48,644 bases of DNA from Desulfobacteraceae bacterium (lineage in GTDB: Bacteria; Desulfobacterota; DSM-4660; Desulfatiglandales; Desulfatiglandaceae). Numbering within the stretch: position 1 is the stretch's first letter; each line of letters opens with the position of its first letter. Positions 6,948 through 48,644 of the stretch are shown in pieces. The stretch lies in NCBI GenBank assembly GCA_003599015.1, contig QZIK01000127.1, forward strand, positions 1 through 48,644, written 5' to 3'. A program made the position numbers and the translations under genes. Below the pieces are notes generated by a model, which saw only the letters and a program-made list of their open reading frames with translations, did no database searches and was not told where the DNA came from.

Positions 6948-9900
6948 GTGTCGCCCACACTCAAGCCTCGAAGCAATTTTTATTGGAAGCCAATAAGCTA
7001 TATATATTTTTTGAGTCTTTTTGTTTTCCTGGCTTTCTTTAGCGCAGGTGAAGCAATAGCAGCCTGCTGGGAGTGCTGGGGACCCGATTTGCCAGACCCA
7101 TGTAGAAATACTCTTTACAGTGTGGCGGTGGTGCAGGGATCGAATGGAAATGATCTCTGGGCCGTTGGGGCAAAAGGCACAATCCTTCGATGGAACGGCA
7201 CTACCTGGAGCAAGGTCGCTAGCCCCACGACTGAAATACTTCGCTCTGTAGCAATGGCAAACAGCAACCTCGGGTTTGCGGTTGGACACGGCGGATGGGT
7301 GCTTAAGTGGGACGGTACTTCCTGGGCCAAGTCGGATGCAAAGACCACCAACTGGTTTCGCACCGTCGGATTCGTCCCAGGCAGCAACGGAAGTAAGGCC
7401 TGGGCCGCGTGCGACTATGCGGGGGTCGGTTACTACATGAACTGGAACGGTTCGCAATGGGACATCAAGTTCGGAGGAAAAAACCAGATTTTTGGGACCA
7501 CCCTTTGGGGTCTTTCCATGATAGACGCAAACAACGGATGGGCAGTGGGGGAGGCATTGCACCAAGTCTCCGAAACCCAATTGCAGATGAAAGGGCAGAT
7601 AACGCGATGGAACGGCGCCAGCTGGAGTGGTACGGACTATCCAGTTGAAAAGGAAGGAAAACTTTACGGCATAGAAATGCTCTCAAATAACGAAGGCTGG
7701 CTTGTGGGAGAAAAAGGCATTATCGCGCGCTGGAATGGAACAACATGGAGTCAGTTGGCCGGCAGCCCCACTGAAAAGGATCTCAGGGCCGTTGACCTTC
7801 GCACGGCCAGCGACGGATGGGCCGTCGGAGAGGAGGGGACAATCCTCCGTTGGAACGGAACGGCATGGGCCTCGGTTGCCTCTCCAGTCTCCTATGACCT
7901 TTACGGAGTTGTTGCTATGTCAGCTACCGACGCCTGGGCGGTGGGTGAATTTGGAACAATCATCCGATGGGACGGAACAAAGTGGAATAAGTTATTTGCG
8001 CCGACAATCGGAAAACTTGAAGATATTTCCGTTGTTCCGGGGACAGACGGATCAGACATCTGGGCCTTGGGCGGCAGTAAACTGGTGCGTTGGAACGGAA
8101 GCGAGTGGCAGGCCGTTCAGGGTCCTCCTTCATCATCCTACTATGCCGTTGGTATGGTATCCCAGAATGACGGCTGGGCGCCTGGCCCAGGAGGCAGATT
8201 TTACCGTTGGAACGGCTCCTCCTGGACCTTGGCTGGCACATGGCAATCTGCTTACGAGATACAGATGCTTTCAGCCAATAACGGTTGGGCTGTAGGATGG
8301 AGCGGCAAGATCCAGCGATGGAACGGCACCGATTGGTCCTTAGTGACATCGCCGACTACTACAATGCTTCAGGCTATCTCCGCTGTGGGAACAAATGACA
8401 TATGGGCCGCAGGGTACAGCGGAACCGTAGTGCGCTACAACGGTACAGCCTGGTCCATTGTCAACACGCCCGATGCAACGGGATTGAATGATGTGAGCAT
8501 GGTCTCCGCAAGCGACGGCTGGGCAGTCGGATTTGTTTACTACGCAAACAGTCAATGCCAGGGGCCTTTCCTGCGCTGGAACGGAACATCCTGGACAAGG
8601 CCTGTATACAGCCAGGCATCAAAGACACTTTATGGTGTTTCTCTGGTCCAAACTCCCTCCGGGGCTACAGGCTGGGCAGTGGGAGACGGTGGCGAGGTCT
8701 ATCAGCTCAAAAACGGTGCCTGGACCGCAGGGTGCACTTACACTGCCAACAGTCTTTACGGTGTAGCATTGGTGTCCCGCTATGAGGCCTGGGCAGTGGG
8801 GGATGGAGGAGTCATCCTCCACTGGGTGGATCCCAGCCGCCCTGCAACAGTCCCGACTGTAAGCACCAATGTTATTTCCTCCATAGGTGACAAAAGTGCC
8901 ACAGGCGGCGGAAATGTTTCCTCCACCGGCGGAACCTCCGTCACAGCCCGAGGGGTGTGCTGGAAGACCTCCCAGAACCCAACAAAGGCAGATACCTGCA
9001 CAAGCAACGGGTCGGGTACCGGTGGCTTTTCAAGCACCATAAGCGGACTTGCTCCCTCAACCACGTATTATGTAAGGGCTTACGCCACAAACAGCGTTGG
9101 AACTGCCTACGGATCAAACAGATCCTTCACGACGGGAGCCGCCAACAGGGTTTACGTTGACACTGACGGGATATGCGGAAACCGTGTGCCGTGCTTTGAA
9201 ACCGTTGGATCTGGATTCGGACAGGCGGGTGAAGGCGCAAGCATAATGGTAATGCTGGGCAATTATCCTGAGTCCCTGGACATTGTGGTGGATAAGCAGG
9301 TGATCATCAATTTTGGATATGATTATGATTACGCTACGACTTCAGGCAGTTCTGTTCTGGGCAATATCATCCTGAAGGGAGGACCGGTTACCTTTTCCGG
9401 CCAATTGACCATCGGTGGTCCTGGAGTCGCAGCCTCACTGAATACAGAAACTTTTACCGCTGTGTCATCCCGGGAAACTTCAAAAATCCTTTGCTTATCC
9501 CCTGCTTCCAGTCCATCCGCCGCCTTCGGATTTAACACACCTGAGGGAGCCCTTTGGGAGCTTTTTGCCTTAAGAGGGCAGCTTCCGGCTGAGTCCACAA
9601 CAGTCAAAGATAATCCAGAACTCAAGTCCGCGCTTGAGGAGGTTGTCATTCACTTTTATCGCACCATTCTGGGTAGAGCCCCTGATAAGCAGACGCTGGA
9701 CCTCTGGGTAAACAGCTATCTTGGTTATTTTCTGGACCTGGATGTGGATATAAGCCTCGCTGCAGGACAGATGGGGCGCATGATGTTCAGGTCTCCCGAG
9801 TACGAAGGACGAAATCGAAGTGGTGCTGAGTTTATTACCGACTGCTATTCTGGATATCTTTTTCGTGAACCGAATCAGGAAGAGATTTCTGCTCATGCCA

Positions 9901-10355
9901 AGCTGGACATGGAGCATACTACGGCCCTGGTTTCAGGATCGGAGGAGTTTAAGGCTCTTCTGCATAACGGATTTCAAGGTTTTTGGGGAGATCCTCTGAA
10001 AAACCAAATCTCCCACATCTATCTGGGTCTCCTTGACCGTCTTGCCTGGGGAGACGAGCTTCACTACTGGACCGTGCGAATGGAAGACATCAAGGACAGG
10101 CGAGCAGGATCTCAAATGTTAGGGGAGGCGATTGTTGAGTCCGAGGAGTTTATATCACTTCACCCTCGCGCTTCAGAACAGGCCGAAAGTCTTTACCTTG
10201 CATACACGGGCAATTTTGTCTCGCGAGCTGAGGCAGGCTTTCTTGGCCTTGAAATCGAATCGGGACGTCTGACTATTGGAGAGTTGATTCGGTTTCTTTC
10301 AGGAACAGCTGAACTCAACGATCTGCGGTTCAATTATAAAAATCCTGTGCCTTGA
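6948..10355 (+). CDS. Secreted 14-blade beta-propeller / FN3-like / DUF4214-like protein
   Basis: A 1135-residue exported protein. The GTG start has AGAAAGGA 9 nt upstream. Residues 1-38 form a signal peptide ending about AIA-A. Residues about 45-630 hold 14 repeats of a WAVG-x-x-G-x-x-x-RWNG-x-x-W pattern, related to Ycf48/BNR-type propeller blades; 14 would fit two seven-bladed propellers. Residues about 632-735 resemble a fibronectin type III domain (LAPSTTYYVRAYATNSVG). About 735-885 is glycine and beta rich. The C-terminus (about 887-1130) has DUF4214-like helical repeats with the YRTILGRAPD motif seen in surface proteins. No sortase, PEP-CTERM or barrel anchor is visible. Likely role: cell-surface or extracellular binding or adhesion; ligand unknown. 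It stands alone, with its own promoter. Confidence 0.82.
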   Translation: MSPTLKPRSNFYWKPISYIYFLSLFVFLAFFSAGEAIAACWECWGPDLPDPCRNTLYSVAVVQGSNGNDLWAVGAKGTILRWNGTTWSKVASPTTEILRSVAMANSNLGFAVGHGGWVLKWDGTSWAKSDAKTTNWFRTVGFVPGSNGSKAWAACDYAGVGYYMNWNGSQWDIKFGGKNQIFGTTLWGLSMIDANNGWAVGEALHQVSETQLQMKGQITRWNGASWSGTDYPVEKEGKLYGIEMLSNNEGWLVGEKGIIARWNGTTWSQLAGSPTEKDLRAVDLRTASDGWAVGEEGTILRWNGTAWASVASPVSYDLYGVVAMSATDAWAVGEFGTIIRWDGTKWNKLFAPTIGKLEDISVVPGTDGSDIWALGGSKLVRWNGSEWQAVQGPPSSSYYAVGMVSQNDGWAPGPGGRFYRWNGSSWTLAGTWQSAYEIQMLSANNGWAVGWSGKIQRWNGTDWSLVTSPTTTMLQAISAVGTNDIWAAGYSGTVVRYNGTAWSIVNTPDATGLNDVSMVSASDGWAVGFVYYANSQCQGPFLRWNGTSWTRPVYSQASKTLYGVSLVQTPSGATGWAVGDGGEVYQLKNGAWTAGCTYTANSLYGVALVSRYEAWAVGDGGVILHWVDPSRPATVPTVSTNVISSIGDKSATGGGNVSSTGGTSVTARGVCWKTSQNPTKADTCTSNGSGTGGFSSTISGLAPSTTYYVRAYATNSVGTAYGSNRSFTTGAANRVYVDTDGICGNRVPCFETVGSGFGQAGEGASIMVMLGNYPESLDIVVDKQVIINFGYDYDYATTSGSSVLGNIILKGGPVTFSGQLTIGGPGVAASLNTETFTAVSSRETSKILCLSPASSPSAAFGFNTPEGALWELFALRGQLPAESTTVKDNPELKSALEEVVIHFYRTILGRAPDKQTLDLWVNSYLGYFLDLDVDISLAAGQMGRMMFRSPEYEGRNRSGAEFITDCYSGYLFREPNQEEISAHAKLDMEHTTALVSGSEEFKALLHNGFQGFWGDPLKNQISHIYLGLLDRLAWGDELHYWTVRMEDIKDRRAGSQMLGEAIVESEEFISLHPRASEQAESLYLAYTGNFVSRAEAGFLGLEIESGRLTIGELIRFLSGTAELNDLRFNYKNPVP

Positions 10356-13952: not shown

Positions 13953-16900
13953 ATGAAAACAAAGGACAAAAATAGGGCCATCGTAATAAAAGGAGCAAGG
14001 GAACACAATCTCAAGGGCCTTGACCTGGATATACCTCTTAACAGGATCACAGTGATCACCGGCGTAAGCGGCTCGGGAAAATCCTCCCTTGCCTTTGACA
14101 CACTTTACGCAGAAGGGCAGCGCCGTTATGTGGAAACATTTTCCCCTTACGCCAGGCAGTTCCTGGAGCGCATGGACCGCCCAAAGGCCGATCGCATTGA
14201 AGGCATCCCTCCCGGCATAGCCATAGACCGAAAAGACCCGGTTAGAACCTCACGTTCAACCGTGGGGACCATGACTGAGATAACCGATTATGTAAAACTT
14301 CTCTTTGCCACCGCTGGAAGGCTCCATTGCGGGAGATGCGGAAAAGAGGTAATGCCGGAAGGCCCTGATGACGTGTGGAGGGCGATTGCGGCCCACGAAG
14401 GCGATGGAGAGGAACTGTTAATAACCTTTCCCTTTACCCTTGAAGAAGGAAAAATTTCTCAAAGTCTCCTTAGCCTTGCGCAGCAGGGATTCACCCGTCA
14501 TCTCAAGGACTGGAGACTCGAGATGCTGGATGAAATTGAAGGCCGGAAGGAACGGGGCAAAACTATTAACGTTGTCATGGACAGGCTCCCCAAAGGAGAT
14601 CGGGATCGAAAGCGGATTATGGATTCCATAGAGCAGGCATTCCTCCATGGTAAAGGAAGAATGGATCTGTGGATGAAACCGGATTATAAGCGCTCCTTCA
14701 GCAGCAGGATGGAATGCCCGAACTGCATGATAGCCTACTACCCGCCGTCACCCAACCTTTTCTCCTTCAACAGCCCCATTGGTGCATGCCCTTCGTGCCG
14801 CGGTTTTGGAAGGATAATTGACGTTGATCTTGATCTGGTAATTCCGAACAGATCCCTCTCCCTTGAACAGGGAGCCATAAAGCCTTGGGGCGGCAGGCAG
14901 GACAAAAGGATGGAATACGGGGATCTTTTGGAGTTCTGCAGGAAGGAGGGAATACCACTTTCCGTTCCATATGAAACCCTCACCGATAACCAGCGACGCC
15001 GCATCGAGGAAGGAACAAGCACCTATTACGGCATAAGGGGTTTTTTCCGCTGGCTTGAAACCAAAACCTACAAGATGCATGTGCGCGTCTATCTTTCAAG
15101 GTACAGAAGCTATGCTGAGTGCCCTGGGTGCGGGGGAACCCGCTTCAAGGATGAAGCCCTTCTATACCGTATAGGAGGGCTCACCATAGCACAGTTATAC
15201 GGGATGAACGTAAAGAAGGCCCGGGAATTCATAAACAGTTTGGATTTTAAAGAGACAAATGAGGCGTTGCGTCTGATTACTCTTGAGATAGAAAACCGGC
15301 TTCGCTTTCTGGATGATGTCGGACTTGGGTATCTTACCCTTGACCGTCAGTCCAGAACGCTTTCAGGCGGAGAGGTCGCAAGGGTCGCAATGGCGGCGGC
15401 CCTTGGATCATCCATGGTTGACAGCCTTTATGTGCTTGACGAGCCGAGCATCGGACTTCATCCAAGGGACACAGACCGACTGACAGGCATTCTGAGGGGC
15501 ATCAGGGACCTTCCCAATACGGTCGTGGCGGTGGAACATGATCCCTTCATAATCGCCGGAGCAGACCATGTCGTGGACCTCGGCCCGGGCGCTGGGACCG
15601 CAGGGGGTCAATTGATGTATCAGGGTCATCCCTCGCAGATGACTGATTCTTTGACCGGTGGGTATCTGAAGGGCCGCTTGAAGATCCCCGTCCCTGAAAA
15701 CAGAAAAAGCCCTCAGCCCGGCAGGTGGCTTATCGTAAAAGGCGCATCAGAAAACAACCTCAAGTCCGTGGAAATAAGAATACCAATAGGGCTTTTTGTG
15801 TGTATCACAGGTGTCTCGGGATCAGGAAAATCAACCCTCGCCGAGGAAATCCTTTACAAGGCCATAAAACGGGCAAAGGGAGATAACCAGGGAAAGCCCG
15901 GGGCATACGGTTCAATGGAGGGGCTTGAATTTCTGGAAGACGCCTGCATGGTGGACCAGCGCCCAATCGGAAGAACCCCAAGGGCCAATCTTCTAACATA
16001 CACCGGAGCCATGACCCATATACGGACAGTCCTGGCAGGAACGCCCGATGCCAGGGCTAACGGTATAAGTGTCTCGGATTTTTCCTTCAACAGCGGGACC
16101 GGAAGATGCCCGGTCTGCAAGGGAGAGGGATTTCAGACGCTTGAGATGCAGTTTTTATCGGATGTGAGCATTGCGTGTCCTGAGTGCAACGGCACTCGAT
16201 TCCAGAAACACATCCTGGAGGTTACCTTCCAAGGAAAAAACATTCAAGACATACTGTCCATGACCGTGGATGAGGCTGTGCAATTCTTTGCAGACAAACC
16301 CCCTGTCATTAAATGTCTTACAGGGGTACAGGCAGTGGGACTCGGTTATATTACACTGGGTCAGCCTCTGAGCACCCTTTCCAGCGGCGAGGCCCAGAGG
16401 CTCAAGCTGTCCAGACACCTGGTGGAAAAAAAAGGAGGTCGCAGGCTTTTCATCTTTGATGAACCGACGACCGGCCTGCATCTGGAAGACACCGCAAAAC
16501 TCCTCAGCGCCCTTTTTGCCCTTCGTGACAAAGGAAACACCGTTCTTGTAATAGAGCACAACATGGAGGTGGTCAAGACCTCGGACTGGGTCGTTGATCT
16601 TGGTCCGGAGGGAGGAGAGGCTGGAGGCGAGGTGGTTGCCTGGGGTCCGCCACAGGAGGCTGCGCTTTCCGATCGGTCTTTAACAGCGCCGTTTCTAAGA
16701 AACGCTTTGGAAGGAAAAGAATGGGTTATGCCCCATGGCTCTTTAAAACCCGCAAGGGTATGTGAGGATGCCGAAGGGGGCTGGAGCCGACCAGATGAGA
16801 TTGCAATAAACGGGGCCAGGGAGCACAATCTCAAGAATCTGACCCTTTCCATACCCAGAAAACAACTCGTTGTTATAACAGGAGTTTCCGGATCGGGAAA

Positions 16901-19256
16901 GTCAAGCCTAGCGTTTGATATACTTTTTGCGGAGGGCCAGCGCCGCTACCTGGAGACCCTTGCTCCATACGTTCGCCAGTATATGAGGATTCTTCAAAGA
17001 CCTGACGTGGACTCTGTATCCGGAATTCCTCCCACGGTTGCCATAGAACAGAGGATAAGCCATGCAAGCAGGCGTTCAACGGTTGGTACCCTTACGGAGA
17101 TATATCATTTCCTGCGGCTTTTTTTCAGCAAACTGGGCACCCCTCATTGCCCGAAATGCGGACGCAGTCTTGAGGCGGGAGACAGGGACGCTATCATTTC
17201 TATGATATTAGAACGTCATGGAAAAGAAGATGCACTGATTCTCGTTCCCAAGCTTGCAGGCAGAAAGGGTTTTCAAAAAAAATTGATCATGGATGCACTG
17301 AAAAAAAACATAACAGAGGCCAGGATTGACGGAAAAATCATTTCCCTTGAAAAAGGCATGGCCCTTTCCCGACACGCTGAACACACTATAGACCTGATAA
17401 TGGGAAGGCTCGCATCAACCGATCCTAAGGGTCTCCTTGAAATGTCCCTGCAGGAGGGAGAAGGGACTGTGCTGGTAATGAGAGATGAAAGATCCGATGA
17501 GATTTACAGCATTACCGGAACTTGCCCGCAGTGCGGGATAGGTGTGCCTGAACCTGACCCGCGGCTCTTTTCCTTTAACACCTCCAGGGGGGCATGCCAT
17601 GAGTGCAAAGGAACGGGGACGGTGGGCGAGGAGTACGACAGGACCTGCCCAAGTTGCAATGGAAGCCGACTGAAGAAAGAGGCCATGGCCGTTACCGTAT
17701 CGGGAATGAGCATCTGGGACATGGTTAGTATCCCAGCCGTGGATCTGCTAGCATCCTTGCGCAGGCTGCTCCTGAGCAGGCAGGCAGAATCCATAGCTGC
17801 TCCTTTGATAGCAGAAATAGCGGTACGATTGTCCCTGATGGAGAAGCTAGGAATATCCTACCTTGAACTCAGCCGAAGCGGTGATACCCTATCGGGAGGA
17901 GAGGCTCAGAGAGTAAGGCTTTCAGCACAGCTCGGATCGAATCTCACAGGCGCATGCTATGTGCTGGATGAGCCTACAATAGGGCTACATCCCAGGGACG
18001 GCAAGGCCCTTATTTCCGCACTTGAGGAACTGAGGGACAGGGGAAACTCAGTTGTGGTGGTTGAACACGATGAAGAAACCATCCGAAGAGCAGACCATAT
18101 AATAGATATAGGTCCAGGAGCTGGAGCGTCGGGTGGAAGGCTTGTGGGAAGCGGTAATCCTTACAGGATAGCGGCCATAAGCGAATCCGTCACAGGCCGT
18201 TATCTTGATGGAAAACCTCGAGTTATAACCTCCCGCCTCAGACCTTACAGGGAAGCAAGTCAAATCTTTGTCCATGGGGCATCTCTACACAATTTGAAGA
18301 ATATTGACGCGGCCTTTCCCCTTGGATGTCTGATATGTGTAACAGGTGTTTCCGGCTCAGGTAAAAGTACCCTTTTAAAGGACGTGCTCTACCGGGGGAT
18401 TGCATCATGTCTTGCCGGTAATCCACAAGAGCCTTCAGGCTGCAGGGCCTTAGAGGGATGGAGCGATCTGAAACGCATCGTAGAGGTTGACCACAGTCCC
18501 ATAGGACGCACCACCCGCTCTGTGCCCTCTTCATACGTGGGATTCCTCTCGCGGGTGAGAGAGCTTTTTTCCATGGTACCGGAATCGAGGTCCAGAGGAT
18601 ACAAACCTGGGCGTTTTTCTTTTAATGTTTCCGACGGAAGGTGCGAGGCATGTAAGGGACATGGAAGCGTAAAGGTTTCCATGGGCTTTCTTCCTGATGT
18701 ATATGTGAACTGCGAAACCTGTAACGGTAAGAGGTTCAATCCCGATACCCTTGCGATCAAGTACAGGGGGAAAAACATCTCGGAGATCATGGAGATGACG
18801 TTTGAGCAGTGCGCGGCCTTTTTCGCTTCTGTCCCCGAGATAAGAAGGGCAGCCGACTTTGTTTCGTCAATAGGGCTTGGTTACCTTCGCCTGGGACAAC
18901 CAAGTCCAACGCTTTCGGGAGGAGAGGCACAGAGGATTAAGCTTGCCGAGGAGCTTTCACGAAAAACCACCGGCCATACATTTTATATATTAGATGAACC
19001 AACCACCGGTCTTCACATGTCCGATGTGGAACGTCTCATCTCCGTTTTGCAGGACCTGGTGGAAAGGGGAAACACAGTAGCCGTAATAGAGCACAACATG
19101 GCGATCATAAAGGAAGCCGACTACATAATTGACTTGGGCCCGGAAGGGGGGAAAGGCGGAGGGAGGATCACGGCTGCGGGATCACCCATTGAGCTGGTAA
19201 AAACAGAAGGGCAATCCCACACGGCAAGATTCCTTAAGACCTACCTTGGAACATAG
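13953..19256 (+). CDS. uvrA: Tandem (double-length) UvrA excinuclease subunit
   Basis: One unbroken frame of 1767 residues, nearly twice the usual 940 or so. Four ABC modules are seen, each with a GVSGSGKS Walker A (about residues 37, 620, 977 and 1464) and a DEP(S/T)(I/T)GLH Walker B. Copy 1 (1 to about 920) and copy 2 (about 940-1767) each show the UvrA start KGAREHNL/NGAREHNL, the RRYVETFSPYARQF or RRYLETLAPYVRQY block and CX2C zinc pairs (CPNC...CPSC near 255 in copy 1; CPQC...CHEC in copy 2). UvrA scans DNA for bulky damage and loads UvrB. Copy 2 keeps canonical LSGGEAQR signatures; copy 1 has LSGGEVAR and LSSGEAQR. GGAG lies about 10 nt before the ATG. No uvrB or uvrC is nearby. The fusion may act as an intramolecular dimer. 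Confidence 0.95.
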   Translation: MKTKDKNRAIVIKGAREHNLKGLDLDIPLNRITVITGVSGSGKSSLAFDTLYAEGQRRYVETFSPYARQFLERMDRPKADRIEGIPPGIAIDRKDPVRTSRSTVGTMTEITDYVKLLFATAGRLHCGRCGKEVMPEGPDDVWRAIAAHEGDGEELLITFPFTLEEGKISQSLLSLAQQGFTRHLKDWRLEMLDEIEGRKERGKTINVVMDRLPKGDRDRKRIMDSIEQAFLHGKGRMDLWMKPDYKRSFSSRMECPNCMIAYYPPSPNLFSFNSPIGACPSCRGFGRIIDVDLDLVIPNRSLSLEQGAIKPWGGRQDKRMEYGDLLEFCRKEGIPLSVPYETLTDNQRRRIEEGTSTYYGIRGFFRWLETKTYKMHVRVYLSRYRSYAECPGCGGTRFKDEALLYRIGGLTIAQLYGMNVKKAREFINSLDFKETNEALRLITLEIENRLRFLDDVGLGYLTLDRQSRTLSGGEVARVAMAAALGSSMVDSLYVLDEPSIGLHPRDTDRLTGILRGIRDLPNTVVAVEHDPFIIAGADHVVDLGPGAGTAGGQLMYQGHPSQMTDSLTGGYLKGRLKIPVPENRKSPQPGRWLIVKGASENNLKSVEIRIPIGLFVCITGVSGSGKSTLAEEILYKAIKRAKGDNQGKPGAYGSMEGLEFLEDACMVDQRPIGRTPRANLLTYTGAMTHIRTVLAGTPDARANGISVSDFSFNSGTGRCPVCKGEGFQTLEMQFLSDVSIACPECNGTRFQKHILEVTFQGKNIQDILSMTVDEAVQFFADKPPVIKCLTGVQAVGLGYITLGQPLSTLSSGEAQRLKLSRHLVEKKGGRRLFIFDEPTTGLHLEDTAKLLSALFALRDKGNTVLVIEHNMEVVKTSDWVVDLGPEGGEAGGEVVAWGPPQEAALSDRSLTAPFLRNALEGKEWVMPHGSLKPARVCEDAEGGWSRPDEIAINGAREHNLKNLTLSIPRKQLVVITGVSGSGKSSLAFDILFAEGQRRYLETLAPYVRQYMRILQRPDVDSVSGIPPTVAIEQRISHASRRSTVGTLTEIYHFLRLFFSKLGTPHCPKCGRSLEAGDRDAIISMILERHGKEDALILVPKLAGRKGFQKKLIMDALKKNITEARIDGKIISLEKGMALSRHAEHTIDLIMGRLASTDPKGLLEMSLQEGEGTVLVMRDERSDEIYSITGTCPQCGIGVPEPDPRLFSFNTSRGACHECKGTGTVGEEYDRTCPSCNGSRLKKEAMAVTVSGMSIWDMVSIPAVDLLASLRRLLLSRQAESIAAPLIAEIAVRLSLMEKLGISYLELSRSGDTLSGGEAQRVRLSAQLGSNLTGACYVLDEPTIGLHPRDGKALISALEELRDRGNSVVVVEHDEETIRRADHIIDIGPGAGASGGRLVGSGNPYRIAAISESVTGRYLDGKPRVITSRLRPYREASQIFVHGASLHNLKNIDAAFPLGCLICVTGVSGSGKSTLLKDVLYRGIASCLAGNPQEPSGCRALEGWSDLKRIVEVDHSPIGRTTRSVPSSYVGFLSRVRELFSMVPESRSRGYKPGRFSFNVSDGRCEACKGHGSVKVSMGFLPDVYVNCETCNGKRFNPDTLAIKYRGKNISEIMEMTFEQCAAFFASVPEIRRAADFVSSIGLGYLRLGQPSPTLSGGEAQRIKLAEELSRKTTGHTFYILDEPTTGLHMSDVERLISVLQDLVERGNTVAVIEHNMAIIKEADYIIDLGPEGGKGGGRITAAGSPIELVKTEGQSHTARFLKTYLGT

Positions 19257-34549: not shown

Positions 34550-34602
34550 CCTTGTTACGGTTATTGGTTTAAACCTGAATTTCATGCACGGGGGTGTCTG
34601 CC

Positions 34603-35574
34603 ATGAAAAACATTTTCCCTCGATGGATAATAGCAACAATTCTGGTCTACTTTATTATAAATGGTACTGCCTGGCCGGAAATTTGTAACAGAATAGTTGC
34701 TTATGTCAACAATGATGTAATTACGCTTTATGAACTTGATAACAGGATGACTAAGCTAGCCGGAATGCAACTTGAAGAATTTAAAGCTAAAGACCCTCAA
34801 GGATATGCGGACGCAAGACGACAGGTGCTCAACCTTCTCATTGATGAAAAGATAGCCCAGGAAAGAATAAAGGAACTTGGGATTAACGTCACGGCCAGGG
34901 AGATTGATCAGGCCATAGAGAGGATAAAAGAAGACAATCGCTGGACCCAGGAAGACCTTTTCGAGAAATTGAAAAGCCAGAAATTGAGCTATGAGGAATA
35001 CAGGGAAGGAGTAAGGACCGAACTTGAGCGGATGAGACTCATAAACCACGAGGTTAAATCCAAAATAATAGTACGTGAGGAAGAGATAGCCGAGTATTAC
35101 AAGACCCACCAGGATGAATTCAACACGCCTGCAAAAGTTAGGCTTTCGGCCATTTTCCTGAAGGATAAGGCCAGCAGGACCCATGAAGATGCAAAATCAC
35201 TGAATGACAGTGCAAGAGAATTGGTCTCAAGACTCAAAGGCGGAGAAGACTTTGGCGAGCTCGCCAGAGTTTTTTCCCAGGGTCCGGGCGCTTCGCAGGG
35301 AGGGGACCTCGGCTTCTTTAACACCGCACAGCTTGACAAGGAACTTCAGGAACTTGTTACCCAACTGCCTGAAGGTGGGGTCAGCGATCCCATAGTCAGG
35401 GCCAGCGGCCTTCAGATAATTAAGGTTACAAAAAAAGAAAAGGGAGGAACAAAATCCCTGGAAGACGTAAGGAATGCGATTTTTAACCTCCTATATAAAG
35501 AAGAGGTAAACAAAAGGTACAATACCTGGTTGGGAGAACTCAGGAAAAAGGCTTACACGAAGATAATCTTCTAA
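34603..35574 (+). CDS. SurA-like periplasmic peptidylprolyl isomerase
   Basis: About 323 residues with an N-terminal signal (MKNIFPRWIIATILVYFIIN, cleavage probably after AWP or nearby). A SurA N-terminal chaperone domain follows (NRIVAYVNNDVITLYELD), then one parvulin domain (about 175-270: VRLSAIFLKD, DFGELARVFSQGPGASQGG, DLGFF, GLQIIKV). E. coli SurA has two parvulin domains; one is common outside the Gammaproteobacteria. Such proteins escort outer-membrane barrels through the periplasm. The ATG at 34603 was preferred to the GTG at 34594 because a G5 ribosome site lies 8 nt upstream. It follows mfd by 53 bp and precedes rodZ by 3 bp. Confidence 0.88.
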   Translation: MKNIFPRWIIATILVYFIINGTAWPEICNRIVAYVNNDVITLYELDNRMTKLAGMQLEEFKAKDPQGYADARRQVLNLLIDEKIAQERIKELGINVTAREIDQAIERIKEDNRWTQEDLFEKLKSQKLSYEEYREGVRTELERMRLINHEVKSKIIVREEEIAEYYKTHQDEFNTPAKVRLSAIFLKDKASRTHEDAKSLNDSARELVSRLKGGEDFGELARVFSQGPGASQGGDLGFFNTAQLDKELQELVTQLPEGGVSDPIVRASGLQIIKVTKKEKGGTKSLEDVRNAIFNLLYKEEVNKRYNTWLGELRKKAYTKIIF

Positions 35575-35577
35575 GGG

Positions 35578-36558
35578 TTGTTGCAGAAACACGGTCCGAT
35601 TGTCGAAGGCACATTGAAAGGCATGCACGAAGACGGCTGGGAAAAAAAATTCACCGAAAACGGTATAAGCCTTGGCGCTTATCTCCTTTCCGAGCGTCAA
35701 AAAAAAGGATACTCCCTTGCCAGGATTGCCCAAGAGACAAGAGTGCGTCTTGAGATCCTTGAGTCAATTGAGAAGGAAGCCTGGGAAAAACTCCCTCCTC
35801 CCGCATTTGTAAAGGGGTTCTTGATTTCCTATGCCCGGGCATTGGACCTTGAAGAAAAGCAGGTCCTTGATATGTACAGCATGGCCGGGCACTCCCCAAA
35901 GCCTCTCAAGCCCTTGGCAAGAACGACAAAAACCGGGAGGGGATTTTACCTTTTCGTTATACCTTTGCTTGTGGTCTTGGCAGGGGCGATGTATTTCCTG
36001 GGGAAAGATTTTTTCCCGGGGTCCGATAAATGGATGGAAAGATTTTTTCCCGGGGATGAGGAAACTGCAAGGTCCATAGATCCTCCGGAAGAAAAAAAAT
36101 CTTCCCCTTATGAGCCCAAACTCATTCAGGAATCCCTTTCCGAAGATCAGTACCAGCAAGATTTAAAGTATGAAATCCCCGGGCAAGAGATGATTTCCGA
36201 TCACAAGGAACCTCTTCAAGAGACGGAGGCGGACAATTCTCCTCCATCAGATTCTCTTAAAACTCCATCTGATGCAAAGGAGCAGACAAAAGAAGGGGAC
36301 CTTATACTTAAAGCCAAGGCTAGAAAGAGGACATGGCTGAGGATAATAGCCGACGGAGGGGAACCAAAGGAGTATATGCTCCCCCCCGGTAGTGAACGCC
36401 AGTTTAGTGCAAGAGAAAGGTTTGAACTTTTGATCGGGAATGCCGGAGGCATAGCTCTTGAATTAAACGAAGAAAAGATGGACAATCTTGGCGCGTTGGG
36501 AGAGGTGCTGAGAATAACGCTGCCCGATGACATGAAAAAGAGAGGTGAAACACATTAA
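35578..36558 (+). CDS. rodZ: RodZ-like cytoskeletal membrane protein
   Basis: 326 residues from a TTG at 35578; an ATG at 35623 is a possible shorter start and neither has a good ribosome site. The N-terminal part is a helix-turn-helix domain of the HTH_25 type (about 30-100: LGAYLLSERQKKGYSLARIA, PPPAFVKGFLISYARAL). One transmembrane helix follows at about 122-141, then an acidic, low-complexity linker (about 145-240) and a C-terminal beta domain of the RodZ_C/DUF4115 type (ILKAKARKRTWLRIIADG). RodZ ties MreB filaments to the membrane and helps set rod shape. No mreB is nearby. Its 3' end overlaps the tyrS start by 14 bp. Confidence 0.85.
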   Translation: MLQKHGPIVEGTLKGMHEDGWEKKFTENGISLGAYLLSERQKKGYSLARIAQETRVRLEILESIEKEAWEKLPPPAFVKGFLISYARALDLEEKQVLDMYSMAGHSPKPLKPLARTTKTGRGFYLFVIPLLVVLAGAMYFLGKDFFPGSDKWMERFFPGDEETARSIDPPEEKKSSPYEPKLIQESLSEDQYQQDLKYEIPGQEMISDHKEPLQETEADNSPPSDSLKTPSDAKEQTKEGDLILKAKARKRTWLRIIADGGEPKEYMLPPGSERQFSARERFELLIGNAGGIALELNEEKMDNLGALGEVLRITLPDDMKKRGETH

Positions 36559-38842: not shown

Positions 38843-40627
38843 ATGTTTGATAAAATTAATTTAGTTCCCCCTCCTTCGGCCGTTAGCCGGCTGCTGAAGG
38901 TTATCTTTTTTTGTGGCATTTTCACTTCCCTTTCATGCGGGAACTTGTTTCACCAACCCGGGCAGGTCCCAGGCAGGGATCTGCAACAACCTGAGCAAAA
39001 GCTCTCTCAGATTTTGCCCCAGCGAACAAAAGATCCTTACGCACTTTTTCTCTACGCCTCACGCTCTGAGAATCAAGGCGATTATGACTCATCCATCAAA
39101 TTCCTTAAGCAGGCCATAGAGCTTGACCCCGGATCCGCTTACCTCAATGCCAAGATCGCTTACCTTCTCAAGGAAAAAAAGGAATTTCAGGAGGCCTTGA
39201 AGTACGCCGGCAACTGTATGGAACTCGAACCGGAGGAGGCGGAATACAGGGTATTAGCGGGAGATCTGAACGCACTGCTGGGGCAGGATGAACCTGCAAT
39301 AGAACAATATGAGCAGGCAGTGCGGCTTGCCAGGGAAAACCACAGGATCAGGCTTCTTTTGACAACACTTTTAATAAGAAAGGGCAGATTCCAGGATGCC
39401 CTGAAACACCTGGATAATATCCTGGAACAAAACCCCGATATGGTCATAGCGCATTACTACAGGGGCAGGGTAAACCTGGAGCTTAAAAGCATCCCTGAAG
39501 CAGAGAAATCCTTTCTGGCTGCCCTTAAGTTGAACGAAAAACTGGAACCAGCGCTTTTCGATCTTGGCACCTTATACCAGATGGCTGGCCGTCATGTGGA
39601 TGCCATAGAGACTTACGAAAAGCTTCTCCGTTTTCATCCTCAAAACCTCTCAGTGAGGGAAAGGCTTGTGAGTCTGTATCTTAAGGCAGGTTTAAAGGAA
39701 AAAGCTGAAAAGGAGATTAACGCAATCAAGGGTCTTTCCCAGCCTGGAGGGTTGGACAGACAGGCCCTTGGTTTGGTTTACCTGAAGCAGGGAAGACTCG
39801 ATGAATCAATCGAAGAGCTTCGCCTCATTGTTTCTGCATGGCCTAAAGACCAAAAGTCCCGATATTACCTAGCGATAGCTTACGAAGAAAAGGGAGATAA
39901 AGAGAAGGCCATAGAGAATTTCGCCCTTATTTCACCAGACTCTGATTATTTCACCAATGCAAGGATCCACATGGCCTATCTTCTCGAGTCCCTGAAGAGA
40001 TTGGATGAGGCCATAAAGGCAATCCGGGAAGGCATTGAGAAGATGAAGAACAAGGCTGAGCTCTATCTGGTCCTTGGATCACTTTATGAAGACAAAAAAG
40101 ATTATGTGAAGGCAAGGGAGGTTCTCCGAGATGGTCTGGCCCTCAACGGGAAAAATACGGACCTTATCTTTAGACTTGCTGTGGTGCTCGACAAGGACAA
40201 CGACAAAGAGGGATGCCTTAAGTACATGAAGAGCATCCTGGAAATAGAGCCTAGCCATGCCGAGGCGCTAAATTACATAGGCTACACATACGCCGAGCAG
40301 GGTATCAATCTTGATGAGGCAATGGAGCTTATAAAGCGGGCACTCAACATAAAACCCGAAAGCGGCCATATAATTGACAGCCTTGGCTGGGTTTATTATC
40401 AGAAAGGAATGTATGCCGAGGCGATAAAGCACCTTGAAAAGGCGGCAGGCCTTATGCCCGATGACCCAACCATCAATGAGCACCTTGGTGATGCCTACGC
40501 AAAGGCCAGACGCTACAAGGATTCATTGGACCGTTACAACAAGGCCCTTTCCCTCGGACCCTCCAACTCTGATATATTGAAGGGTAAGATTTCCGACATG
40601 GAACTGCGCCTGAAAAAAGGCAATTGA
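38843..40627 (+). CDS. TPR-repeat protein, probably exported or lipidated
   Basis: A 594-residue protein built almost wholly of tetratricopeptide repeats, roughly 12 to 14 from about residue 50 to the end; clear examples include ALFLYASRSENQGDYDSSIK, AHYYRGRVNLELKSIPEAEK and HLGDAYAKARRYKDSLDRYN. The N-terminus has a basic stretch and a hydrophobic segment ending SLSCGN, which resembles a signal peptide with an imperfect lipobox. TPR proteins are scaffolds; no enzymatic domain is seen. The start context is weak (GGAG sits only 1-2 nt before the ATG). Its stop overlaps the LolB-like gene start, and the pair recurs in related genomes as I recall, so an outer-membrane assembly role is plausible. 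Confidence 0.82.
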   Translation: MFDKINLVPPPSAVSRLLKVIFFCGIFTSLSCGNLFHQPGQVPGRDLQQPEQKLSQILPQRTKDPYALFLYASRSENQGDYDSSIKFLKQAIELDPGSAYLNAKIAYLLKEKKEFQEALKYAGNCMELEPEEAEYRVLAGDLNALLGQDEPAIEQYEQAVRLARENHRIRLLLTTLLIRKGRFQDALKHLDNILEQNPDMVIAHYYRGRVNLELKSIPEAEKSFLAALKLNEKLEPALFDLGTLYQMAGRHVDAIETYEKLLRFHPQNLSVRERLVSLYLKAGLKEKAEKEINAIKGLSQPGGLDRQALGLVYLKQGRLDESIEELRLIVSAWPKDQKSRYYLAIAYEEKGDKEKAIENFALISPDSDYFTNARIHMAYLLESLKRLDEAIKAIREGIEKMKNKAELYLVLGSLYEDKKDYVKAREVLRDGLALNGKNTDLIFRLAVVLDKDNDKEGCLKYMKSILEIEPSHAEALNYIGYTYAEQGINLDEAMELIKRALNIKPESGHIIDSLGWVYYQKGMYAEAIKHLEKAAGLMPDDPTINEHLGDAYAKARRYKDSLDRYNKALSLGPSNSDILKGKISDMELRLKKGN

Positions 40628-41457
40628 GTGTTGTGATCTCTCGAGCTTTCACCTGCAGCCTTTTCCTGCTGGCATTTTTTTTCTCCCTCCAGAGCTGTGC
40701 CCCTCTGATACCGGATACCTCAAAAAAACGATTAACAAGCGCAGAGAGGGATCAAGCCATGTCTTTACTGGCAAAGGAAGATCTCAAGGCTTCAACCTTC
40801 TTTGGAACAGGTCACTTGACAGTGGAGGGACCTGATTCCTATTCAAAGGCCCCTATTCTTCTGGTGGGAAGGAGACAGCCCCTGGCTTTAAGACTTGAAA
40901 TAACACATCCTTGGGGAAAGCCTTTGGCCCATATGGTGGTCAAGAAACAAGGCTTTATGCTTTTGGTCTTTCAGGAGGCTAAATGCTATGAAGGCGACGC
41001 TTCTGCAATGGCCGGTCAAGGTGCTCTTCCCATAAGCCTTTCACCCCATGAGCTGTGGGGGATTGCAAGGGGATTCCCCATGCTGGAGGGCTTCAGGCCG
41101 GTTGAATCAACCGGAATAAGCGAAATAAGGCTCCTGGAGGCGCATGAAAACTCAGAAAAGATACTAAAACTGGACGGCAACACACCCCGAAGCATTGTTT
41201 TCCCCGGAAGAGGTATTGAGATAAACTACGATGGTTTTACCCGCGGAGGGGGAATCTCCTTTGCACCCATAGTCCGGGTCTCAAGTGAAGCTGGCAAACA
41301 TACCGTCACCATTAAGCATGATCAGATGGAGTTTAACACGCCGATTTCCGAGGCCCTATTTCAACTTGACGTTCCCCAGGAATTTGAGAAGGTGAGAGTG
41401 ACCGGATTCAAGAATACACCCATGGCCCCCGCAAAAGACGATTCGGACAGGCTATAG
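40624..41457 (+). CDS. LolB/DUF4292-like outer-membrane lipoprotein
   Basis: A 277-residue predicted lipoprotein. The signal peptide ends in the lipobox SLQSC (Cys about 25). The mature part has the LolA/LolB-like pattern: FFGTGHLTVEG, PLALRLEITHPWGKPLAHMV and later strand-rich segments ending FQLDVPQEFEKV. LolB receives lipoproteins from LolA and inserts them in the outer membrane; the similarity here is fold-level, so the precise job is uncertain. The start is a TTG overlapping the TPR gene stop; the GTG three codons in is an alternative. It is followed by the molybdoenzyme gene after 27 bp, apparently in the same transcript. Confidence 0.7.
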   Translation: MSVVISRAFTCSLFLLAFFFSLQSCAPLIPDTSKKRLTSAERDQAMSLLAKEDLKASTFFGTGHLTVEGPDSYSKAPILLVGRRQPLALRLEITHPWGKPLAHMVVKKQGFMLLVFQEAKCYEGDASAMAGQGALPISLSPHELWGIARGFPMLEGFRPVESTGISEIRLLEAHENSEKILKLDGNTPRSIVFPGRGIEINYDGFTRGGGISFAPIVRVSSEAGKHTVTIKHDQMEFNTPISEALFQLDVPQEFEKVRVTGFKNTPMAPAKDDSDRL

Positions 41458-44881: not shown

Positions 44882-44930
44882 GGACGTCTTCAATTTGCTC
44901 TGTTGCTGTTTATATAAAATGCTAAGGACC

Positions 44931-46214
44931 ATGCTGGTGAAGGAATTTTCCCAATCCAAATACCCGCAGATCGCTTTCCCCTTCCTGATGGCGCTTGTCT
45001 TGATTGCCGCGATTATCAGACCGCCCTGCGCCTTTGGAGGTGAACCTTCAAAAAACAAGTCGTCTTCCTTTTTTTATGAGGAAGATGTCCAGAAAACGCT
45101 CAAGAAATACCTGGGAGTTCCTTATCAAACCGGAGGATACAGCCGGGACGGGTTTGATTGTTCAGGCTTTGTAAGATACACTTTCAAAAGGATCTTCGGA
45201 GTGGATTTGCCCCACAACTCCAGAGAACAGAGTGCATTCTCAAGATTAAAAAATGTTAAGAGCGGAGAGTTAAGAACCGGAGATCTTCTTTTTTTCTCAT
45301 CGGGAATCAAGTCAAGGAACATAAGCCATGTTGGCATATATCTTTCGGAGGGAAGGTTCATCCACTCCCAGGGTAAAAAGGGGGTAATCATATCGGATCT
45401 TAACCATACCTACTGGAAACCCAGATTAAAACATTTAAAACGACTTTCCGGCATTGATATAAGACCACATCACAGGGACTCATCTTTTGCCTCGGTGTCA
45501 TGGGACTTTTCTCTTTCCGAAAGAAGCGACCTAAGTTTGGGGTTTTCATCCATCAGGGATACCAGAGGCAGGTCAAGCGAATCATCATACGGCACAGACG
45601 CTTCGTGGGCAAAGCAGATAAGTGATACATGGCACCCTACTTTTCAGTCATTATATATGAGTTATACCACTACTGTCGGAAAAAATGGGTGGGATCTCGG
45701 AATCAGTGCCTTCAGGGATGAGATCCCAACGAACGTCCCATGGCACCTTCATTCACTGGCGCCCCTCCCGGGCTTAAGCTACCCTGAGCCTTACGGTCAA
45801 ACCTTTTATCGTCACGGGGTCCGTTTTGGCGGCAACCTTGTAATGGATGACGGATTGGCCTTCAGGTCATCCCTGGGACTTCTTGAATACAGGAATCTGC
45901 CTGACCATGATGATGTGATAAGGCGTTCCTTTGACGTAGGGGTTGAGCTTGCATCAGAGGAAACCGGCTGGTCTATCCTGGCTGATTTCTTTTACTCGGA
46001 CAAAAAGCAACTTGCGGAAGATCTATTTGAAAAAAGCGAGAATAGTGTTTATGTCGATATGTCGCTTACCTTGCGTCGCCAGCTGACAGATCAGCTTGGA
46101 ATCTCCATAACTGGACAGCGCTCCCTCAACGATCTGGCGAACCTCGAGGACCCAGCAGGGTTCCCCGGGCAGGTGCAGAAATCACTTTTCTTCAAACTGG
46201 ATTTCAGATATTAA
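44931..46214 (+). CDS. NlpC/P60 peptidase fused to a predicted outer-membrane beta-barrel
   Basis: About 427 residues. The ATG at 44931 was chosen because AAGGA lies 4-5 nt upstream; upstream in-frame ATGs lack one. A signal peptide (about 1-40, ending near CAFGG) is followed by an NlpC/P60 domain (about 48-175) with catalytic Cys77 (GFDCSGFVRY), His133 (ISHVGIYL) and His145 (RFIHSQ), the normal triad positions for cutting peptidoglycan stem peptides. Residues about 185-427 alternate polar and aromatic/aliphatic residues with short turns (WDFSLSER, DLSLGFSSI, WDLGISAF) and the protein ends FFKLDFRY, like the C-terminal strand signal of outer-membrane barrels. A barrel-anchored periplasmic or surface peptidase is inferred. 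Confidence 0.8.
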   Translation: MLVKEFSQSKYPQIAFPFLMALVLIAAIIRPPCAFGGEPSKNKSSSFFYEEDVQKTLKKYLGVPYQTGGYSRDGFDCSGFVRYTFKRIFGVDLPHNSREQSAFSRLKNVKSGELRTGDLLFFSSGIKSRNISHVGIYLSEGRFIHSQGKKGVIISDLNHTYWKPRLKHLKRLSGIDIRPHHRDSSFASVSWDFSLSERSDLSLGFSSIRDTRGRSSESSYGTDASWAKQISDTWHPTFQSLYMSYTTTVGKNGWDLGISAFRDEIPTNVPWHLHSLAPLPGLSYPEPYGQTFYRHGVRFGGNLVMDDGLAFRSSLGLLEYRNLPDHDDVIRRSFDVGVELASEETGWSILADFFYSDKKQLAEDLFEKSENSVYVDMSLTLRRQLTDQLGISITGQRSLNDLANLEDPAGFPGQVQKSLFFKLDFRY

Positions 46215-46428: not shown

Positions 46429-46791
46429 ATGGAAAATAATGACTACGAAAATTGCGACCTGCCATCAGCTTTATGTATGGATGAAGGCGAACCTTGTGCG
46501 GTAACGATACCTATAGACGGAATCCTTGACCTTCACCAATTTGTGCCTTCCGATGTCCCCAACCTCCTTGAAGACTACCTGGAACTTTGTATTGAAAAGG
46601 GCATCTATCATGTAAGGGTGATACACGGCAAAGGAACCGGCGCATTGAGAAAAAGAGTCCACGCTCTTCTCGCAAGAGATCAAAGGGTTATTAGTTTTTC
46701 AACTGATCAGGGCCCGGGTGGCTGGGGGGCAACAAGTGTAGAGTTGCGACCGATTTCCGGGCAAAAGAAAGGAGTCCAAAAAGGTGGATAA
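46429..46791 (+). CDS. Smr-domain protein
   Basis: About 120 residues. The small MutS-related (Smr) domain is clear: the ILDLHQF start (the D-L-H motif), a helix, then VRVIHGKGTGALRKRV (the HGKG/T-G motif) and GGWGATSVEL at the end. Smr domains bind or nick nucleic acids; stand-alone copies act on branched DNA or on collided ribosomes in other bacteria, so the role here is open. The first 25 residues are acidic. The ATG at 46429 was chosen over the GTG at 46420 because AAGAAGG lies 10 nt upstream. It overlaps the next gene by 8 bp. Confidence 0.85.
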   Translation: MENNDYENCDLPSALCMDEGEPCAVTIPIDGILDLHQFVPSDVPNLLEDYLELCIEKGIYHVRVIHGKGTGALRKRVHALLARDQRVISFSTDQGPGGWGATSVELRPISGQKKGVQKGG

Positions 46792-47296
46792 GAGCCGTTA
46801 CAGCAATCCTTATTTGATTGGAGTATTTCTAGGTCTGGTCCTTCTATTTACCTATTACACCATGGGGAGAGGAGTGGGTTCATCTTCTTCATTCGCAAGG
46901 GTTGGCGTCGCGGCTGTAGCCGCCATGGCACCTGAGCATGCAGGGTCCAATACATTTATGTCTGCATTTATGCAGAAAGGGAGGCCTGTTCTCATGGAAT
47001 GGCTTATTTTTCTTAGCCTGGGGGCCGCACTGGGCGGGCTTTTTTCAGCCTTCGTCGGCAGAAGGCTAAAAGGTGAAATTGCCAGGGGTCCTGCTGTTGG
47101 AGTGAACGGCAGGCTTTGGCTGGCCCTTGCAGGAGGAATTCTGTCAGGTTTTGCGGCCAGGCTTGCCCGTGGATGCACAAGCGGCCAGGCGTTGACAGGC
47201 GCTCCTGAACTCGCTTTAGGAAGCTGGGTTTTCATGTTTTGCATCTTTGCAGGTGCTTACGGTGCTGCATACTTTTTCAGAAAGGAGTGGCTGTGA
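46784..47296 (+). CDS. YeeE/YedE-family sulfur transporter, first half
   Basis: A 170-residue membrane protein with about four helices, equal to half of a YeeE/YedE (TsuA-like) transporter. The signature RGCTSGQALTGAPELALGSW carries the conserved Cys131 that passes thiosulfate in characterised TsuA proteins. The start is GTG at 46784, with AAAGGAG at a 9-nt spacing and an 8-bp overlap with the Smr gene. The stop overlaps the next gene by one base, so both halves are translated together and probably form one transporter for a reduced sulfur species. The exact substrate (thiosulfate or other) is inferred from the family. Confidence 0.85.
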   Translation: MDKSRYSNPYLIGVFLGLVLLFTYYTMGRGVGSSSSFARVGVAAVAAMAPEHAGSNTFMSAFMQKGRPVLMEWLIFLSLGAALGGLFSAFVGRRLKGEIARGPAVGVNGRLWLALAGGILSGFAARLARGCTSGQALTGAPELALGSWVFMFCIFAGAYGAAYFFRKEWL

Positions 47297-48099
47297 TGGG
47301 ACCTCTGTACAAATACGGCTGGTTTGATTTTTCGTACAGTCTTCAACTTGCAGTTCTGATAGGTTTTTGTTTCGGGCTGCTTCTTGAAAGAGCCGGATTC
47401 GGAAATCCCCGCAAGCTGACTGCTATCTTTTACCTGAGGGATTTTGCTGTCCTCAAGGTAATGTTTACGGCAATTGTGGTGTGTATGCTGGGGCTGCTTT
47501 ATTTTTCGGTCCTTGGCTGGTTGGATCTCGAAAAGATCTACCTGTTGCCGACATTTATATGGCCGCAGATAGTTGGAGGTCTTGCCCTTGGGGTAGGTTT
47601 TATCATGGGTGGATACTGCCCAACAACCTCCGTTGTTGCCACGGTATCGGGCAAACTGGACGGCCTTGTATTTTTGGCCGGCATGGTTATCGGCTCCCTG
47701 ATTTTTGCAGAACTGTTTCCTTTGCTGGAAGGTTTTTATAACGCAGGGGCCATGGGAGCCATAAGGCTAAGCGATTTTTTCGGAATACAGAGCGGCATTG
47801 TTGCCTTTCTTGTATGTATAATGGCGGTGGGAGCATTCTGGCTTGTTGAGAGGGTGGAAAAAAGATTCGGGGATCCTGAAACCCTTCCTGAAGGGGGGTC
47901 AAAGTTTAAAACCATTGGAGCAATAGTGATTCTCATCCTTGGACTTGCTCTGGCTTTCCTGAATCCGGACGGCCCGGCATCCCCTGGACAGGAGTCGGTA
48001 AAGGGTGCCGATGCAAAAGCCACCACCCTGGATGCACCCAGGAGTCAGGCAGCTCCTGCGGCCGAAGGGTTCAAGATTGTTCACGATGAAGGTTGTTGA
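47296..48099 (+). CDS. YeeE/YedE-family sulfur transporter, second half
   Basis: 267 residues from the ATG at 47296; AAAGGAG lies 8 nt upstream. An in-frame upstream ATG at 47239 lies inside the preceding gene and lacks a site. About six helices; GFCFGLLLERAGFGNPRKLT and MGGYCPTTSVVATVSGKLDG with Cys108 are YeeE/YedE marks. A hydrophilic C-terminal tail of about 40 residues (rich in Ala, Lys and Pro) ends in VHDEGC, beyond the usual family end. It forms a pair with the preceding half transporter. The role is uptake of thiosulfate-like sulfur compounds or sulfur relay; no rhodanese or TusA gene is in the window. Confidence 0.85.
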   Translation: MGPLYKYGWFDFSYSLQLAVLIGFCFGLLLERAGFGNPRKLTAIFYLRDFAVLKVMFTAIVVCMLGLLYFSVLGWLDLEKIYLLPTFIWPQIVGGLALGVGFIMGGYCPTTSVVATVSGKLDGLVFLAGMVIGSLIFAELFPLLEGFYNAGAMGAIRLSDFFGIQSGIVAFLVCIMAVGAFWLVERVEKRFGDPETLPEGGSKFKTIGAIVILILGLALAFLNPDGPASPGQESVKGADAKATTLDAPRSQAAPAAEGFKIVHDEGC

Positions 48100-48119: not shown

Positions 48120-48644
48120 TCATTCCTCCAGGACCTTTGCAATCAAGGCCGCGTGGCGATGAGCCGCCCCGCTGTGGGAAATGACCGCCCGGCGGGCCGC
48201 CTCTCCCATTTTTTCAAGCTCCCTCGGGTGTTCAAGATACCAGATAATTTTCTCCCCAAGAATATCCGGTGAGGCTATCTGCATAGAACCGCCTTCCTTT
48301 TCAAGAATCTCCTTGGCTTCTGCAAAATCCTCCATTGAAGGCCCATAAAAAACAGGTTTTCCCCATGCGGCCGGTTCCATGGGATTCTGGCCTCCCATGG
48401 GGACCAGGCTGCCCCCGCAAAATGCGACGCTTGCAGCTGAATAGATATTGAAAAGCTCACCAAAGGTATCCACAATCACCACCGGTTTTGTCCTTTCCTC
48501 CTTTCCAGTTGAAATATCACTCCAAAGTTGATACTCCAGCTTATTATTGCGGATCATGGAAGCAATGGACTGTGTCCTGGTTATATGCCGAGGAGCAAGG
48601 ATCAGGATACAGGAGGGAATGCTCTCTCTTATCCTGAGATAACA
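48120..48644 (-). CDS. waaA: 3-deoxy-D-manno-octulosonic acid (Kdo) transferase, C-terminal part
   Basis: The frame is open from the right window edge to the TGA at 48120, 174 codons, so the N-terminal part lies outside. It shows LILAPRHITR, VVIVDTFGELFNIYSAASVA, FCGGSLVPMGGQNPMEPAAW and GKPVFYGPSMEDF, all typical of the C-terminal GT-B domain of WaaA/KdtA, which adds Kdo to lipid A precursor at the inner membrane. An internal ATG at 48557 is not the start, because upstream codons continue the family sequence. It faces the YeeE/YedE pair with a 20-bp gap. It shows that the host makes Kdo-bearing LPS. Confidence 0.93.
   Translation of the reverse strand, partial: CYLRIRESIPSCILILAPRHITRTQSIASMIRNNKLEYQLWSDISTGKEERTKPVVIVDTFGELFNIYSAASVAFCGGSLVPMGGQNPMEPAAWGKPVFYGPSMEDFAEAKEILEKEGGSMQIASPDILGEKIIWYLEHPRELEKMGEAARRAVISHSGAAHRHAALIAKVLEE

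Follow-up and report, generated by a model that had tools for sequence, protein, structure and literature searches.

To our knowledge, the enzymes that cut the cell wall in diderm bacteria are either soluble or attached, by a lipid anchor or to the inner membrane. Two other kinds of outer-membrane protein are also relevant here, as OmpA carries an N-terminal eight-stranded barrel followed by a C-terminal binding domain, and the type V autotransporters place the passenger first and a 12-stranded barrel last. Among the NlpC/P60 peptidases the closest described system is MepS (Spr), the murein DD-endopeptidase/LD-carboxypeptidase of E. coli, which carries its lipid on the first mature residue and which NlpI brings close to the outer membrane (PMC11211486). 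A precedent for joining an envelope enzyme to an outer-membrane barrel is provided by the YfiM-Griddle and YfiM-DUF2279 lipocone proteins, which are fused to such barrels (PMC12419801); these belong, however, to another enzyme superfamily, and that paper's two mentions of NlpC are unrelated to barrel fusion. We found no description of an NlpC-barrel fusion in the largely non-subscription literature searched.

The protein described here is encoded on the plus strand of a 48,644-nucleotide stretch of DNA (hereafter the window), which is contig C5 of a 3.0 Mb genome in 149 contigs that is 66% complete. Its parts are of known kinds and its domain architecture is new. We consider it probable that the protein is a MepS-like NlpC/P60 endopeptidase, that it is exported by Sec, and that a barrel of its own, with nine to eleven strands (ten being the likeliest number), anchors it in the outer membrane so that the peptidase lies in the periplasm. 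As in OmpA, an integral outer-membrane barrel would be combined with a part that meets peptidoglycan, but here the barrel comes last and the wall part is enzymatic; the C-terminal OmpA domain (PF00691) was absent from the window protein in a Pfam scan. The type V autotransporters share with it an N-terminal effector, a C-terminal barrel with a beta-signal and comparable structure matches, whereas fewer strands (ten main ones) are modelled in the window protein.

The gene occupies positions 44931..46214 (+), stop codon included, and encodes 427 residues in an uninterrupted frame that starts with an ATG at 44931 and whose stop codon ends at 46214; an alternative in-frame TTG lies upstream at 44895 and would lengthen the protein by 12 residues. 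A probable Sec signal peptide without a lipobox cysteine (residues 1-36, 44931..45038, boundary placed by eye) is followed by the NlpC/P60 catalytic domain (residues 62-169, 45114..45437), a poorly conserved linker (residues 170-198, 45438..45524) and the C-terminal beta-barrel domain (residues 199-427, 45525..46211), all on the plus strand. The same arrangement recurs in 24 distinct homologous fusion open reading frames from 22 genomes, and all 24 carry 219-259 residues after the peptidase when measured at a fixed offset from the cysteine. Because 24 distinct and intact fusions exist, chance, a frame artefact or mis-assembly is ruled out as the origin of the fusion.

The catalytic domain is identified clearly by PF00877 (E 3.2e-30, 104.6 bits against a family cut-off of 23), and an earlier note on this DNA was right to describe its triad as intact. 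The predicted catalytic residues Cys77 (DCSGF, 45159..45161 (+)) and His133 (HVGIY, 45327..45329 (+)) and the predicted third residue His145 (FIHS, 45363..45365 (+)) show no variation across the 11 sequences of the first alignment, and the corresponding motifs are present in 24/24 fusions. The closest solved chains to the domain, by sequence and by fold, are those of E. coli MepS/Spr (phmmer 3e-26; Foldseek 1.8e-9), suggesting a MepS-like peptidoglycan endopeptidase that probably cuts cell-wall cross-links. MepS also resembles the window protein in having an NlpC domain after its signal and in its expected location at the outer membrane; it differs in being a lipoprotein with nothing beyond the NlpC domain, while the window protein lacks a lipobox and continues for about 230 residues of barrel. 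Membership of MepS proper was rejected, as the window protein scores 102.2 bits against an NCBIfam equivalog cut-off of 186 and the lipobox cysteine is absent. No other PF00877 match was detected in the window's own genome (66% complete), and in a 97% complete genome (G032), as in some others, the barrel fusion is likewise the sole NlpC/P60 protein detected.

The predicted manner of anchoring separates the fusions from their known relatives. A lipobox scan of the window protein's signal peptide was negative, a lipoprotein identity being rejected on this ground, and the pattern was not matched in 23 of the 24 fusions, the exception (L088) being ambiguous. A second kind of NlpC protein occurs in these bacteria, mostly in frames of 260-310 residues that end at the NlpC domain, and in all 18 of these short proteins a cysteine closes the signal core (10 by the strict pattern, 8 by eye). 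We refer to them as SPOR-NlpC/P60 lipoproteins, a label that covers all 18 frames and rests on the one in which the SPOR domain was examined, L134, where it was identified by Pfam. They share the catalytic family and the host bacteria with the fusions, and several genomes contain both kinds, yet they have a cysteine after the signal core, are barrel-less and fall in a separate clade of the NlpC tree. The barrel thus appears to substitute for the lipid anchor used by known relatives.

One indication that the C-terminal region is a barrel comes from its last strand. The window protein ends in SLFFKLDFRY, and in the 22 of 24 fusions aligned (A4, with L105 and L130 outside) every member has hydrophobic residues at positions -1, -3, -5, -7 and -9 counted back from the C-terminal end, position -1 is always F or Y, and positions -4 and -10 are never hydrophobic, a beta-signal pattern that bears out the FKLDFRY strand signal proposed in the earlier note. 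The same note had described about 240 residues of barrel-like alternation. The length agrees, with 258 residues following the Pfam match and a modelled barrel spanning 229; the alternation holds for the family profile but not for the window sequence by itself. Over the ten modelled strands, the column-averaged profile scores 21.8 against 11.4 (sd 2.6) for shuffled profiles, and none of 2000 column shuffles within strands scored as high, whereas a crude single-sequence count gives the window protein seven alternating strands against 5.0 in its own shuffles (p 0.17) and reaches p < 0.05 in 8 of 22 members.

Comparison with known families points in the same direction. In a search of 395 genomes of the phylum, the tail-alignment profile also matched five TonB-dependent receptors (L106-L110, E 1.9e-6 to 6.8e-4), identified as receptors by Pfam, and the matched stretches fall inside the receptor barrel. 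Residues 170-427 of the window protein matched no Pfam family, and the only Pfam matches seen among family members were weak ones (E 0.0075 or higher, each in a single member out of 11), two of them to families of outer-membrane barrels and one to a putative phenol-degradation family. A search of solved chains with the barrel-alignment profile gave no match. Neither of the libraries used (Pfam and NCBIfam) has a family model for the C-terminal domain, which is a candidate new domain family.

Structure models built with AlphaFold2 from a three-sequence alignment support the fold of a membrane barrel. Both the full-length model and the barrel-only model are of low confidence (mean pLDDT 50.6 and 55.7, respectively), and both contain the same ten main strands in an up-and-down meander; a soluble beta-sandwich, the outcome that would have counted against the earlier proposal, did not appear. 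Foldseek ranked NlpC structures first and membrane barrels next for the full-length model, and for the barrel-only model all 50 matches listed were membrane barrels or complexes of one, with a best E of 0.013 and thus none below E 1e-3. VIA-align 2 likewise returned membrane barrels in 50 of the 50 matches listed for this low-confidence barrel-only model, at Z 9.5-12.2. No particular barrel family is to be read from these structure matches because the model is poor. Together with the receptor matches and the missing lipobox, the models and the matches listed support the earlier suggestion that the peptidase is tethered by a C-terminal outer-membrane barrel, into which membrane the domain would insert.

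The strand number bears directly on the side of the membrane that the peptidase would face. Nine up-and-down strands are common to the family. Models and profile together define s1 (residues 240-249, 45648..45677), s2 (254-264, 45690..45722), s3 (293-304, 45807..45842), which contains the invariant Gly296 of the alignment, s4 (309-322, 45855..45896), s5 (329-342, 45915..45956), s6 (347-360, 45969..46010), s7 (372-384, 46044..46082) and s8 (390-399, 46098..46127), and the last strand, s9 (418-427, 46182..46211), carries the beta-signal of 22/22 members. The first and weakest modelled strand, sB (residues 199-206, 45525..45548; all strands on the plus strand), is present in both models, yet it lacks alternation in the alignment (p 0.55). 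By eye, two short strands are possible ahead of s1-s9, and for the extra linker strands whose pattern was seen by eye the alternation was not above chance, as 65 and 143 of 500 shuffles scored as high. The barrel would have nine to eleven strands. Bacterial barrels have an even strand number as a rule, and in the outer membrane their C-terminal end is periplasmic. Ten strands are most likely on the basis of both models, the even-number rule and the location of peptidoglycan, and a ten-stranded barrel would have its two ends in the periplasm and the NlpC domain beside its substrate; with nine or eleven, the peptidase would be outside. The earlier note had allowed for either side, periplasm or surface; the peptidase most likely faces the periplasm, although the tenth strand is weakly supported.

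The leading alternative places the peptidase on the cell surface, through an odd strand number or an autotransporter-like export, with the walls of other cells or secreted peptides as its target. The passenger-first, barrel-last order of type V autotransporters, the presence of autotransporter barrels among the VIA-align 2 matches listed (Z about 10) and the fact that nine strands are firm and the two possible short ones ahead of them were seen by eye all speak for such an exposure. We nevertheless regard it as unlikely, since both models have ten main strands, Pfam scans of the window protein and of family members found no autotransporter beta-domain, the domain is shorter than a 12-stranded autotransporter barrel, and peptidoglycan is periplasmic.

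With the peptidase in the periplasm, the protein would be exported by Sec and its barrel would insert in the outer membrane. From the inner face of that membrane the NlpC domain would hang on the linker, where it could cut peptide cross-links on the face of the sacculus nearest to it. Such a role would parallel that of lipid-anchored MepS in E. coli, presumably in wall growth, with the barrel replacing the lipid anchor and adding five surface loops. In the family alignment, the turns s1-s2, s3-s4, s5-s6 and s7-s8 are almost invariable (median 4, 4, 4 and 5 residues), and the loops between them have medians of 32, 28, 6, 11 and 19 residues, so that several loops on one side of the barrel are long and variable in length. 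It is conceivable, if rather improbable, that these variable surface loops bind a ligand outside the cell and in this way control wall cutting at the inner face, with neither a lipoprotein nor an NlpI-type adaptor. If true, this would make the protein a distinct class of outer-membrane enzyme through which the cell surface exerts direct control over wall growth. Furthermore, if the enzyme is itself an outer-membrane barrel, assembly of outer-membrane proteins would be coupled to wall expansion in one chain, because the enzyme would reach its place only via the barrel-assembly route.

The long, length-variable loops could also be read as belonging to a barrel that is itself the working part, as a pore, receptor or adhesin, with the NlpC domain helping it through the peptidoglycan mesh or tying it there, much as a barrel and a wall-binding domain are combined in proteins of the OmpA type. 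However, every member retains an intact triad, and conservation of the NlpC domain is no lower than that of the barrel (59% versus 53% identity to the copy from the same genus), which leaves this arrangement somewhat less plausible still than surface exposure. Low model confidence and the lack of a Pfam family for the window's domain would also suit a soluble, beta-rich domain that binds wall or sugar, but this is very improbable given the perfect beta-signal, the uniform membrane barrels among the structure matches listed, the profile matches to TonB receptor barrels and the inclusion of two outer-membrane barrel families among the weak Pfam matches of members.

We assessed the distribution of the fusion using several queries. 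In a scan of genome contigs, 80 of 476 loci were kept, among which L002 and L003 were the other full-length matches and the rest matched only as far as the NlpC domain or just past it. A tail-only query matched 8 of the 85 genomes of the window's class, and an alignment of 11 tails matched 21 of the 395 genomes of the phylum, where reading of the frames identified 16 NlpC-tail fusions and five matches that were not. Matches were found in 10 of the 46 genomes of the window's family, and the fusions are spread over several families of the one phylum. Outside it, one profile was run against 892 genomes of three phyla, and no full-length match was found in 349 (the phylum of L017), 247 (that of L039) or 296 (that of L075) genomes. 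Thus the NlpC/P60-plus-barrel architecture, when looked for, was seen in these samples in one phylum only. Partial matches in 6, 1 and 21 genomes of the three phyla, respectively, lie mostly over the last part of the NlpC domain and run partly through stops; four matches, one in the phylum of L017 and three in that of L075, fall in the barrel part of frames of 677-973 residues. Among plasmid records, 746 had a match and none covered 80% of the query.

A single origin of the fusion is indicated by its NlpC domains, which group as one clade. In the NlpC-domain tree (near copies L105, L149 and L151 left out; 3 of the 16 chosen outgroup loci without sequence), 23 fusions and the barrel-less tandem paralogue L136 group together (support 99/96), separate from the SPOR type; loci L140, L146 and L154-L157 are outside all counts. 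Most simply, the fusion would have arisen once and then been retained. L136 adjoins the fusion L100 on one contig of genome G368, and its barrel was either lost or never gained. Tandem NlpC genes, one barrel-less and one barrel-bearing, are seen at L167 (5606-8477) in G368, both with long linkers rich in Lys and His before the peptidase. A different genome, G065, holds three barrel-fused NlpC copies (L086, L090 and L130).

The genomic surroundings offer a view of the envelope in which the protein would act. Within the window are genes for a SurA-type chaperone (34594-35574) and, in part, a Kdo transferase (48120-48644), together with a weak RodZ-like match (35578-36558). These genes suit a diderm with LPS, and the organism is thus likely to produce LPS and to process outer-membrane proteins. 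OmpA-domain proteins are encoded elsewhere in the genome, and Omp85/BamA was not found in this 66% complete assembly. The direct neighbours of the fusion gene, a GAF/cyclase gene and a Smr-domain gene, are not conserved in relatives. A conserved operon was considered and rejected, as 23 neighbourhoods (the window, L002, L003 and L160-L179) have no common partner and no conserved neighbourhood indicates a pathway; besides the fusion cluster, only five gene clusters reach three loci, among them an amino-acid permease and a beta-lactamase-fold protein beside L002, L003 and L170.

Several other genes of the window, all on the plus strand, merit description. A 277-residue lipoprotein-like frame (40624-41457), without a Pfam or NCBIfam match, resembles a LolB-type carrier by eye. 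A secreted-looking protein of 1135 residues (6948-10355), with no Pfam match, contains repeated 'GWAVG..G.I..WNG..W' units and apparently consists of a beta-propeller-like repeat with further domains after it. A gene of 1767 residues (13953-19256) has a full-length UvrA match, with the double-length UvrA model below cut-off, and apparently comprises two UvrA units in one chain. Finally, two adjacent sulphur-transport genes (46784-48099) correspond to the two halves of PF04143, in the manner of a split transporter.
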